64,000 bases of DNA from Telopea speciosissima (taxonomy: Eukaryota; Streptophyta; Magnoliopsida; Proteales; Proteaceae). The stretch lies in NCBI RefSeq assembly GCF_018873765.1, contig NC_057922.1, positions 9,871,563-9,935,562 of the forward strand, given 5' to 3'. Shown here piece after piece: positions 20,595-25,504 of this stretch. Within the stretch, counting starts at the first letter, position 1; every line of letters starts with the position of its first letter. The notes below the pieces were generated by a model. That model worked only from the letters and a program-made list of their open reading frames with translations, did no database searches and was not told the DNA's origin. The position numbers and the translations under genes are program-made.

Positions 20595-23015
20595 ATGGCC
20601 TCCTTCCATGGTAACATTTTTGCTTCTTCCACTTCTCCATCTCCCACAAATAGTTCCCAAGAATTTGGAAGAACCAGCAGTAGTGCTGTCAATATGGTAA
20701 GAATTGAACTTTCTTAGTTTCTCCAAGAAATGGGCAACTATATAATTAATAATATTTTTGTCCAACAACTAATTTAAGACTCTTCTTGCTTTTCACTATT
20801 GTAGGCTGAAATTCAGGTCAAACACAATGAGAGATGTGAGGAACTAAGGCGAATTCTGGGTGAACTTGTTGATGAACCATTAGAATGTATGATGCTGATT
20901 GATGCACTGCAACGCCTCTGCATCGATTACCACTTTGAAGATGAGATCAAAATATTCTTAGACAAACTTTATTATGGAAGCAGCTTTAAATCTACTGATG
21001 ATAAATCTACTGATGACAAAGTGGAATTGCATGAAATCGCGCTGCATTTTCGACTGCTGAGGCAAGCTGGTTATTTTGTTCTTACAGGTACGTAGCTCGA
21101 TCTCACTCCTTAATTAATTACATGTTGAAATTAAGTGTATACTAAGTATCTGATATAGAACTATTGGTGTAATTATAGATGTTTTTGAGAGCTTCAAGGA
21201 CAAGGAGGGAGAGTTCAAACAAGAATTGAGTGAAGACATAAGAGGACTGATGAGTTTATTTGAAGCTTCACACCTTGGAATGGAAGGTGAAGATGAAGAC
21301 ACACTACTTGATCAAGCCAACTACTTCTCTCACAACCACCTTACTGCTGCTAAGATGAGTACTACTACTACTACTACTCTGGAATTAGAACCTGGACTTG
21401 CCAGAGCTGTGGGTGATACCTTGAAGCATCCCTTTCACAAGAACCTTGCTAGATTCAAGGCCAGACACTACTACTACGACCTCATTAGTAGTACTCATGG
21501 CACATATGGATGGGTCAGTCTTGTACAGAAATTTGCAAGGATGGATTTTAACATGCTTCAATTCTTATATCACCAAGAACTCCTTCAGATTTTTAAGTAA
21601 GTTGAGCTTGGTTGCCAAAGTTTATTAGTTGATTCGTTTTAATTTGGTTGTCCCCTTCCTTAATTGATGATAAATAATGTTTTCTTTTGCCATATGTACA
21701 TAATTAGGTGGTGGGAAGAGCTGGGTCTATCACAAGAGTTGAAGTTTGCTAGAGACCAACCACTAAAATGGTATTTGTGGTCCATCACAGCTCTCCCAGA
21801 ACCAAAGCACTCCCAGCTAAGATTGGAGCTCACAAAACCCATCTCACTTGTCTATATAATTGATGACATTTTCGACGTTTATGGGACACTCGATGAACTC
21901 ATTCTCTTCACTGAAGCAGTAAACAAGTAGGACTACATACGATACTGGTGACATTGATGACATTTAATTTCGACTGTCTATAATCAAATTAGTTCTCTGT
22001 TCTTACTGGGATCAAATTAAAATAAATCATGTTGATTAATTCAGGATTAATGATTTAATTAATGGATTTCTGTACCTATATATAGATGGGAGACTACCAC
22101 CATCAAGGAACTGCCAGAATACATGAAGATTTGTTTCAAAGCTCTTGACAGCATCACCAATGAAATAAGTGATAAAGTCCTTAAAGAACATGGGTGGAAC
22201 CCCATCACCACCCTGCAGAAAGCGGTACAGTACTACATTAAGCACCCAATTAATACTAAATTAACTTTGAGGTTCTTGCTAAATTGTATGTTTTATAAAG
22301 AACCTTCTAATTGCTGTGTATGAAATTGATTACACATACAGTGGGCAAGCCTTTGTGATGCATTTCTAATTGAAGCCAAATGGTTTGGGTCTAAGCTGGT
22401 GCCTAAGTCAAAGGAGTACCTGGAGAATGGAGTAATAAGTTCAGGAGTGCCTCTGGTTTTAGCTCATTTGTTCTTTCTACTGGGCCAAGGTCTAACCCAG
22501 GAGAGTGTACTATATTGTGTGGAACACAACCCACCACTCATATCTTGCACAGCAACAATTCTTCGTCTATGGGATGACTTGGGAAGTGCCAAGGTATATA
22601 ACATCTTTATATAAAGATCGACAACCTATCGATCTATATTTACAAAATCCAAGTGTAGTAGTAGTAGTAACTATTCTATATTAATTTTCTAATTAAGTTT
22701 TGTGATTTGATTGGTTGATAGGATGAGAAGCAAGAAGGACACGATGGATCTTATATAGAATGTTACATGAAAGAACAAGAGGGGGGTTCTTCAATTGGAA
22801 GTGCAAAAGATCATGTGTTTGGAATGATTTCAGATTCTTGGAAGCAACTCAATAGAGAATGCATTTCAAAAAACCATTTCTCACCCTCCTTCAAAAGGGC
22901 CTCACTTAATATTGCGAGGATGGTTCCTTTGATGTACAGTTACAATGACAATCAAAACCATTCAATCCTTGAGGAGTATATCAACTCACTGCTCAGCGAA
23001 AGTGTTCCTTTCTAA
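20595..23015 (+). CDS. TPS-g type terpene synthase, seven exons, 568 aa
   Basis: Exons with GT-AG borders: 20595-20696, 20805-21087, 21179-21596, 21708-21926, 22086-22224, 22342-22593 and 22722-23015. They splice in frame to 568 residues, a normal length. The enzyme ionises a prenyl diphosphate (GPP or FPP) with Mg2+ to make a mono- or sesquiterpene. Metal-binding motifs are intact: DDIFD at 320-324, and the NSE/DTE motif at 465-473 (DDLGSAKDE). The N-terminal RRX8W motif is absent, and FARDQPLKW (281-289) replaces the usual RDR; both are hallmarks of TPS-g enzymes, which mostly make acyclic alcohols such as linalool or nerolidol. The 34-residue first exon is Ser/Thr-rich and could be a short transit peptide. 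The product is not predictable from sequence alone. It looks functional; a TCA-rich and ACT-repeat stretch in exon 3 (a run of Thr near 183-188) is slightly unusual. Confidence 0.9.
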
Positions 23016-23252
23016 TTGGAATTTTTCATAATTTTGGTACTATACGGAATAAAAAAAGTGTGGTTCTTTCTGCTTCTCACTATGAAGAAGAGTGAAATAG
23101 TTCACTTCACTACTATTTTATCTTATCTACCACAATTAAAATGAAAGGGTAAAATCCGTAAATTCACCAATAATAGAATCTTGGGAAAGAGATCCTTCAT
23201 GATGGGTGTGGTGTGCTGTCCCTACGCCCAATCACAGGTGCATGCAGAATGT
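23016..23252 (+). other. 3' flank of the terpene synthase gene
   Basis: Presumed 3' UTR and flank. A possible polyadenylation signal (ggaataaaaaaag) lies at about 23046-23058. Nothing else is recognised. Confidence 0.35.
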
Positions 23253-23504
23253 GATCTGGCTGCTGTCCAGCCGTGGCGGGAGCTGGACCGTCCAGCACCC
23301 ACCTAAGATTCTTACACCTAGACAGGTTTACATCAAACGGTCCTAAATTTGAAAGGAAAGTTTTAACCCATCTTCCTATCTCACCCTCTCCTTTGACGAA
23401 ACCCGATCCAACTTCAGAACATATTCCATCTTCCTCTCCTGAAAAACCATTCGTTTCTCTTCATCTTCCCCCCATATTCTACTCATCTTCTCTGGAATCA
23501 TGGA

Positions 23505-23690
23505 AACAACTGGTTTATACCCTTTTCCTAAAAGAATTATGTCTCATGAGGAAGAGAATAGAATAAGGTGGAAGTACATCTGGAGTTCTGTTACCAGTCT
23601 TGACTGTGATGATGGGTTGTATAATGCTGAAACAGGGAAGAAGCGAGTTAGAGCAAAAGTGGCAGATTTCATGAATTTTGTGGATAGCCA
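23505..23690 (+). pseudogene. Captured F-box/LRR gene fragment, part 1
   Basis: The frame encodes RWKYIWSSVTSLDCDDGLY and ends ADFMNFVD. This is the segment just after the F-box in plant F-box/LRR (often FBD-type) proteins, where a ..RW+.LW..V..LDFDD.. motif and an FVDRVL motif are usual. After FVD the sequence changes abruptly into the 5' leader of the PDI piece. It is a fragment only, without the F-box itself. Confidence 0.65.
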
Positions 23691-23955
23691 TCTTCAGAGA
23701 AGAAAGAGACGAGACAGGCGCGGACAGTCCATTTTCCGCAGATAAGAGAGAGAGAGCGCTCTAGCCATGGCGTCTAGGGTTCCGATCTGCTTCTGCATTT
23801 TTGTTTTCTGTCTTTTCATTTCGTTTCATAGATTAGTCTCTGCTGCCGAAGAAGAAGGCAAGGCTGGGGAGTTTATGGTCACCCTTGATAACTCCAACTT
23901 CACTGATACTGTTAACAAGCATAACTTCGTTGTCGTTGAGTTCTATGCTCTATAG
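23691..23955 (+). pseudogene. Captured protein disulfide isomerase exon 1 (5' leader, signal peptide, start of thioredoxin domain)
   Basis: After a purine-rich leader (aagagagagagagcgctcta), an ATG at 23767 opens MASRVPICFCIFVFCLFISF, a clear ER signal peptide. It continues with VTLDNSNFTDTVNKHNFVVV and EFYA. In PDI family proteins this runs directly into the catalytic PWCGHC motif; here the frame ends just before it. The match is to the N terminus of PDI-like thiol oxidoreductases of the ER lumen. The piece interrupts the F-box/LRR fragment on both sides, so it was acquired separately or inserted later. It cannot encode an active PDI. Confidence 0.8.
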
Positions 23956-23984
23956 TATTGCTTCTTGTTCTTTTCGTTATTTTA

Positions 23985-24310
23985 TTCTGCGATGCTGATC
24001 GAATTGATGTATCTGATCGGTCTTTCCATCTCAAATGTGGTAGCTCCTGTGATTTAGATCACATTAATGCTTGGATATGTACTGCTATTACTCGTTTGGT
24101 TCACCAGCTCTGTCTCTCGATTTCTGTGAAACAGTTCCTTAAGTTGCCACACTACCTCTTTACTTCTGAATATCTGGTTAAGTTAGAATTGGTTGGAAAT
24201 TTTGTACTCAATGTTCCTTCTTACATCTGTTTATCAAGACTCATTATCCTCTATTTTGGAAGAGTTACTTTTCTTGATGTTATCTCAGTGGAACTACTCT
24301 TTTTAAGCTA
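23985..24310 (+). pseudogene. Captured F-box/LRR gene fragment, part 2
   Basis: The frame encodes SFHLKCGSSCDLDHINAWIC, then KQFLKLPHYLFTSEYLVKLE, then a segment ending GRVTFLDVISVE. This is the LRR part of plant F-box/LRR proteins (typical pattern: F+L.C....C....+.W+..A..R..., then ..LP..LF....LV.L.L..., then ICL..L..L.L..VTF.D). It follows on from part 1 once the PDI piece is set aside, so both parts probably came from one donor gene. The frame stays open into the right TIR to 24503. Confidence 0.7.
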
Positions 24311-24661
24311 TACAACACTTGGAGAAGATGAGTGGAATATAGAAAATGAGAGAGAAGAATACCTGGTTAGCCTCGTCATCGTTGGAATCAACTTTGAAGA
24401 AGATGAGTGGAATATAGGGGAAGATGGAGATTCTCGCAGAAAGGGGGAAGATGAAGATAAACGAACGGTTTTTCAGGAGAGGAAGATGGAATATGTTCAG
24501 TAGTCGGGTCGGGTTTCGTCAAGGAGAGGGTGAGAGAGGAAGATGGGTTAAAACTTTCCTTTCAAATTTAGGGCCGTTTGATGTAAACCTGTCCGGGTGT
24601 AAGAATCTTAGGTGGGTGCTGGACGGTCCAGCTCCCGCCACGGTTGGACAGCAGCCAGATC

Positions 24662-25504
24662 CATGAAGAATGACCACCGCCGCACCTTTGAAAATTTCGG
24701 TCTTTCCATGGGATGCGCAGGATGACTGCCGTGCCTCTGAGAATTTCCACCTTTCCATGGGGATACAGCAATCATTCCGCGCCCAGGTAGTGTTCTTTCC
24801 AAAGGAAGAACTTTGGAACTCTCCGGTTCTCTCCCCTGCTTTTTTTCCGGTCTCTATTGCCCCGTCACTCTGCAACTTCACGAATCCCACCCCTTGACTC
24901 CCTTTGCAACTAAATGCCCCGGTCCTCTATTTCTCCCTCATCATCCTTCTCCGGTGGTTTTGTAATTCGTGCTCCTCAATTAACTATCAACCCTGAAATG
25001 GTTATAATGGTAGCGACAGAGAGAAATCTGCTTCCCGTTCAAGGAATTTCAGGAGTTGGTTGCACGTATCGTAGAAAACATTAATTTTTGAGTGGTACTC
25101 GTTAAGCCGGTTACGATATCGTAGATGCTTGTTTTGGCGCGAGAGAGAGAGATTTCAGTGAGCCGATCCCTTCTTTTGAGTACAGCAACACTGGGAAACT
25201 GGCTCCAGCAACACCGAGAAGGAAACCGAGGGAGAGGCAACTTTTCATCCGAGCCTTTTACAGCTTCTCCACCACACGTACATGGAGTTCACATCCTCTA
25301 GTTCCGCCCTGCCCGGAAGTTTCCGCCTTGCTTGTGTGTGGGGCGCACACGGCAGTTGGTGCAGGCGAAAGTAGAAGACGTGAATTTCACGTACATGAAA
25401 ACGCTCAGGCATAGGTAAGGCGATCAATGTGCACACCCATGTGTCTGCACCGCTCAGCCTGCTATAGGCAGTAGATCTCGATCTATGTAATTTGCTTATA
25501 AATA
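24662..25504. other. Intergenic, GC-richer patch
   Basis: Just outside the Pack-MULE, two adjacent units of about 47 bp (24670-24765) share gccgc/gccgtgcct.tga.aattt and cctttccatggg. No coding exon is recognised. The open frames are continuations of TIR sequence or low complexity. Confidence 0.4.

Follow-up and report, generated by a model that had tools for sequence, protein, structure and literature searches.

The window (the whole stretch of 64,000 nucleotides of Telopea speciosissima DNA that was analysed; positions are counted from its first letter) carries a chimeric element of 1411 bp, terminal bases included, at 23252-24662 (G000:C7:9894814-9896224; genome of 823 Mb). The element is very probably a non-autonomous Mutator-like Pack-MULE whose cargo, a piece of a protein disulfide isomerase (PDI) gene nested in a piece of an F-box/LRR gene, spread in trans and then drifted. 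The cargo comes from two donors in nested order, the F-box fragment lacks 34 bp and 102 bp of its donor, and the unit spread with separate target duplications. The features are collected in Table 1.

Table 1. Position and basis of the features of the element and of its surroundings (window positions).
Feature	Position	Strand	Basis or remark
Terpene synthase, last exon (neighbour, outside the element)	22722..23015	+	Pfam PF19086 over cut-off; PF03936 just under (this exon alone)
Left target-site duplication ATGCAGAATG	23242..23251	.	9/10 identity to right flank
Left terminal inverted repeat (TIR)	23252..23491	+	Inverted arms I1-I3; TIR family of 455 termini
F-box gene fragment, 5′ part, starts just before ATG	23490..23687	+	Matches C6:13036923-13037003 and 13037097-13037222
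F-box-derived ORF, 81 aa	23500..23745	+	Ends in PDI 5′ UTR at a stop private to the window copy
PDI fragment: 5′ UTR, exon 1, first part of intron 1	23696..24026	+	Matches C7:16126659-16126994 minus, 93%
PDI-derived ORF, 62 aa, MASRVPICFCIF...EFYAL-stop	23767..23955	+	ORF comparison across copies
Start of PDI intron 1 (first 72 bases), 5′ GT retained	23955..24026	+	Alignment with C7 donor
LRR part of the same F-box gene	24024..24321	+	Matches C6:13037257-13037557, 94%
Inner TIR edge repeated at right junction	24319..24355 (second copy 24394-24430)	+	Direct repeat D2, inverted repeat I4
Native right subterminal region and right TIR	24341..24662	-	Matches in relatives run from about here to the end
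Right target-site duplication ATGAAGAATG	24663..24672	.	9/10 identity to left flank ATGCAGAATG

Borders, inverted ends and family

The TIRs of the window element are about 240 bp each. They include three pairs of inverted arms: 23253-23393/24521-24661 (141 nt, 96%), 23393-23472/24443-24522 (80 nt, 93%) and 23469-23491/24398-24420 (23 nt, 91%). Aligned with each other as DNA, the left and right ends of the window copy score E 5.2e-91. The long inverted ends claimed by an earlier, sequence-only reading are thus confirmed by alignment; its borders, 23253-24661, do not include the terminal bases and are corrected to those given above. The outermost bases are GGATCTGG...CCAGATCC in most relatives; the window copy begins with T. 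The element begins 236 bp downstream of the stop codon of the terpene synthase gene (23013-23015), in agreement with the 240 bp of the earlier reading. A 37-nt repeat present twice (78% alike, 49 bp apart) lies just right of the element (24676-24761).

Other copies of the TIR pair, whose search that reading had advised, are numerous. A search for a 25-base TIR-end pattern, with at most 3 mismatches allowed, gives 233 forward and 222 reverse matches, i.e. 455 termini genome-wide; the reversed-pattern control gives 0 matches. Target duplications of 9 bp recur in the family. The flanks were compared in 19 elements whose two ends are both visible, including six copies of the chimera itself; the C2 and C9 copies of the chimera, the second right end in L022, L025 and the single-end loci were left out of this count. 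Flanking 9-mers agree at 9/9 positions in 10 elements, at 8/9 in 3 and at 7/9 in 3. The other three are the C8 copy of the chimera (5/9) and two elements that agree in a 10-bp register: the window element (9/10) and L044 (8/10). In the control with mispaired flanks (342 pairs of different elements), the maximum is 7/9, reached by 3 pairs. In L025, CCCCTCTA is common to both sides, one base out of register.

Mutator-like elements (MULEs) have long TIRs and target duplications of 9-10 bp. The family is assigned to the MULEs according to the length of its TIRs and its target duplications, not according to a linked transposase. Within this class, the window element has what is characteristic of a Pack-MULE: a target-site duplication of about 9-11 bp, long TIRs common to a MULE family, gene fragments with identifiable non-transposon parents (F-box/LRR on C6, PDI on C7) and no transposase of its own. 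Its three main ORFs have no Pfam match to a transposase, and the two donors explain almost everything that lies between the TIRs. It also moved as a unit: the duplications of the window, C10, C1, C3 and C9 copies all differ. Elsewhere in the genome, MULE transposase domains are common (827 candidates, of which the 150 scored are over the Pfam cut-off). No transposase-bearing partner with the same TIRs was found when 97 of the 455 termini were compared with 150 of the 827 MULE-domain candidates, the nearest lying about 115 kb away.

Two other classes were considered. Pack-CACTA elements have CACTA ends and a 3-bp target duplication; they are ruled out by the ends GGATCTGG and by the 9-bp duplications. 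hAT Pack-TIR elements have an 8-bp target duplication; they are ruled out since the 8-bp register gives at most 6/8 in the 19 elements.

Another member of the family carries a fragment of a DUF868 gene (C11:38413486-38413791; Pfam E 2.7e-13), which indicates that this TIR family captured genes more than once. Among six stretches of cargo of relatives searched with Pfam, only DUF868 is over the cut-off (1/6); PPR and Herpes_UL73 are below it. Two 4.3-kb members, C5:66782168-66786420 (L022) and C3:65819735-65824065 (L023), have a common interior of 3 kb (94.5%) without any long reading frame.

Donor genes, captured pieces and junctions

According to the earlier reading, an F-box/LRR piece is interrupted by a PDI piece. 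Both pieces were matched to genes of the same genome, on C7 and on C6 respectively (Table 1). No TIR of the element's family was found in the 6 kb examined around the F-box/LRR donor or in the 8 kb examined around the PDI donor.

In the F-box/LRR donor, the stretch that the element matches from 23490 begins at C6:13036923. The open first exon of this gene encodes 321 aa, with a Pfam F-box match (E 3e-8) and LRR matches. The captured 5′ piece carries a net deletion of 102 bp (34 codons), in frame, at about 23562. The gene had been correctly identified from the letters as F-box/LRR, but the deletion removes most of the F-box motif from the fragment. The donor is collinear across the PDI insert: the match ends at 23687 and resumes at 24024, with 34 bp of donor lost.

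The captured PDI exon 1 runs from the signal peptide (by eye) to EFYA. In the C7 donor, further PDI-like stretches follow in order (by eye); the next one contains a thioredoxin domain (E 1.1e-8). The 62-aa ORF taken alone has a Thioredoxin match below the cut-off (E 0.03) and weak matches to PDI chains (E 0.072 or worse); its naming as PDI therefore derives from the match to the C7 gene. The window copy has CTATAG in place of CCATGG, so that its PDI frame ends at EFYAL. This change is private: CCATGG is found in 6/6 other copies holding the stretch. The C8 copy has a PDI-frame stop a few codons before that of the window copy.

Another PDI copy, beginning at C10:55091007-55091283, has no intron: its exon 1 is joined straight to exon 2 (by eye), and it is probably a retrocopy. 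Just where the left junction falls, the element resembles the 5′ UTR of this copy more closely than that of the C7 gene (CATCTYCAGAGAAG). The C10 copy is ruled out as donor because it is without the intron that the element carries. A PDI relative at C1:59326996 was considered as a second Pack-MULE and rejected: a TIR end lies about 1 kb off but faces away from the PDI stretch.

The junctions differ in their overlaps. PDI-to-LRR: clean 3-bp overlap TTC. F-box deletion: inexact overlap AAGG, from which the element itself differs by at least one base. LRR-to-subterminal joint: TTGAAG in the donor and in the inner TIR, against TTGGAG in 7/8 copies, again an inexact overlap. Comparison of the two left junctions gave no overlap worth naming. 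With only one clean overlap, a mechanism by template switching has little to rest on at the junctions; that microhomology led the repair there is a guess.

Copies of the chimera and their coding potential

The chimera was found at eight places, which rules out a unique single element: six near-full copies (window, C10, C8, C1, C6 and C3), one split copy (C2) and one hybrid (C9). Searches with the 201-bp F-box 5′ piece gave eight candidates, all of them scored (8/8): seven elements and the donor. With the LRR piece, the nine candidates scored (9/9) were eight elements and the donor. The PDI piece matches eight elements, the donor, the intron-less copy and three weaker relatives (13/13); in the C9 copy, only the last 57 bp of this piece are matched. 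The F-box/PDI arrangement was also looked for outside TIRs: every place found with both donors bears the right TIR of the element's family. No other TIR-borne PDI piece was found among the loci examined, C344:10490-10633 (77%) being left out. Target duplications are imperfect at the C6 (7/9) and C8 (5/9) copies.

Two copies proved to be other than they first appear. The C2 copy was considered as a plain partial copy and this was rejected: it is near-full, with a left TIR split by a 6.5-kb insertion. Its outermost bases (about 14) have diverged and its target duplication is not visible. The insertion (C2:44313718-44320251) contains reading frames that look Ty1/copia-like by eye. The C9 copy (C9:11310022-11311077) was considered as a truncation and this was also rejected: it is a hybrid between the left end of another MULE-like element and the half of the chimera that contains the PDI intron, the LRR piece and the right TIR, and it has its own perfect 10-bp duplication, GATTTCATAT on both sides. 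Over its leftmost 316 bp, the C9 copy resembles C2:1042760-1043076 at 94% (a second comparison gave 91% over 346 bp); no second end was found at that C2 locus. The hybrid shows that ends are swapped in this TIR family. The C8 copy is nested in another MULE-like element (about C8:20117319-20119157), whose outer ends are GGACCTGG (left) and GGATCTGA (right).

Coding potential was compared in the seven copies with a left half. Three of them (window, C8 and C6) have the F-box ATG and the PDI ATG in one reading frame. The F-box frame is open past the PDI ATG in two (C6, 185 aa; C8, 148 aa). In the window copy, which has two private stops, one of these ends the F-box frame upstream of the PDI ATG; in the C10, C3, C1 and C2 copies, this frame is shifted or stopped. 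If the PDI 5′ splice site were joined to an AG within the LRR piece, the hypothetical product would be 215 aa long in two copies (window and C10) and 59-94 aa long in the remaining five; these lengths are arithmetic and not evidence of splicing.

Selective constraint on the cargo, as expected of an expressed chimeric gene, was not found. For the F-box piece (7 copies), pN/pS is 1.54 (shuffle median 0.94; 259/300 shuffles at or below). For the LRR piece (8 copies), it is 0.94 (median 0.79; 223/300). For the PDI exon (23767-23953; 7 copies), it is 2.12 (median 0.69; 297/300), above the 95% range of the shuffles (0.35-1.66). Selection maintaining the cargo is rejected, the three values being inside or above those of neutral shuffles. 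The high PDI value reflects too many replacements, contrary to what constraint would produce; since it comes from seven copies that are related and is uncorrected for CpG decay, a candidate cause, it is not read as positive selection. Compared with the donor, copies have 4-5 synonymous and 4-11 replacement changes in the F-box piece, and 0-4 synonymous and 14-19 replacement changes in the LRR piece. Judged from these comparisons, the copies look like drifting passengers and not like a new gene.

A functional new gene, either an expressed F-box/PDI fusion or a spliced protein with a signal peptide and LRRs, kept by selection, is accordingly put forward here as a very unlikely reading. The two copies with a frame open past the PDI ATG and the two that could yield the 215-aa product would speak for it; the lack of purifying selection and the stops or frameshifts that vary among copies, two stops being private to the window copy, speak against it. 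For the same reasons the useful new transcript expected by the sequence-only reading did not find support. It is highly improbable, and a shade more so than a gene of that kind, that some copies are transcribed and either spliced from the PDI 5′ splice site to the LRR AG or left unspliced as an F-box/PDI fusion (185 aa in C6). If this were true, the spliced product, whose frame is kept in the window copy and in C10, would be an LRR protein with a signal peptide that enters the ER or is secreted, and a transposon would have built new proteins out of two unrelated genes.

Origin of the chimera and comparison with known systems

According to the proposed origin, the donor pieces would have been taken up while repair synthesis, with template switches, closed a break in the element. 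The finished chimera would then have been mobilised by a transposase supplied in trans. One insertion reached the site behind the terpene synthase gene, and the copies have drifted since, with no sign of constraint.

The pieces may have been captured in one step or in several. Capture in a single event would involve one repair tract going from F-box to PDI and back to F-box 34 bp further on, with no two steps at any time; this is a serious candidate, held at somewhat below even chances. It fits the same nested structure in all 7 copies with the left half, the collinearity of the F-box donor with only 34 bp missing, the lack of any intermediate found, and the similar lengths of the donor branches in the copy tree (0.038 for F-box/LRR, 0.044 for PDI). 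The intermediates may simply be lost, however; the second scar in the F-box fragment (the 102-bp loss) makes several repair events easy to imagine, and the C9 hybrid shows that later remodelling does occur in the TIR family. Stepwise capture, as asserted by the earlier reading, is possible but unproven, since the genome searches, by a method that skips very common words, gave no element with an unbroken F-box piece; the likeness of the donor branch lengths does not favour it either. Ordering the two captures by divergence was tried and rejected as uninformative. In the tree, internal branches are short (at most 0.009) and supports range from 26 to 95; the tree was rooted on the donors by choice, so that it is no test of the donors lying outside the copies.

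A read-through transcript would be predicted to fold the long inverted ends into a hairpin RNA. It is unlikely that the element thereby acts as a silencing element, with stems of about 240 bp from which small RNAs would act on the F-box and PDI donors. In the predicted single-strand RNA fold of the element, both TIRs pair over their length, which is expected of any such inverted repeat, and maize Pack-MULEs are among the siRNA reservoirs able to silence donor genes (a review of gene capture and small RNAs, PMC13317346). The captured pieces, however, sit in the loop and not in the stem, so that the hairpin itself would give small RNAs of the TIRs and not of the donors. As for a retroposed or ordinary pseudogene chimera lying by chance between repeats, a separate intron-less PDI copy does exist on C10, but part of an intron is present in the captured PDI piece, and the chimera is found repeatedly between these same TIRs, its insertions having separate target duplications; this explanation is already contradicted and has almost no chance of being right. 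A Pack-MULE with nested cargo, mobilised in trans and drifting, is the reading retained.

Rice has over 3,000 Pack-MULEs (PMC13317346). In the Oryza survey, about 5-10% of the MULE-derived putative genes have two or more parents and most evolved neutrally; the GC content of donors is stressed (PMC4858842). The window element resembles these MULE-derived genes and Pack-MULEs in being a non-autonomous MULE with pieces of at least two parents; it is unlike the Oryza cases in that the piece of one donor interrupts an otherwise collinear fragment of the other donor. Among Pack-TYPE elements, which belong to several TIR superfamilies, some contain material from more than one locus (PMC8903248); compared with that survey, the window element has the long TIRs of MULE type and target duplications of 9-10 bp. 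Gap filling and FoSTeST models have been set out for animal elements, and their value for plant Pack-MULEs was called worth exploring (PMC8277862). The animal cases are alike in their capture by template switching followed by transposition, in their multiple copies and in their distinct target duplications; unlike the window element, they are mostly hAT and TcMariner.

In the literature searched, no paper was found that brings together Pack-MULE, protein disulfide isomerase and F-box. Multi-donor Pack-MULEs are already published, so that the chimera joins a known kind: it is a real, well-preserved chimeric Pack-MULE, ordinary in kind, and taken alone it adds one example to the Pack-MULEs. What makes the case unusually clean is that a single genome preserves both donors along with several copies, the target duplications, the scars at the junctions, the hybrid derivative C9 and the nested copy C8. 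A comparison of related species could tell whether nested multi-donor cargo of this type formed in one event or stepwise.
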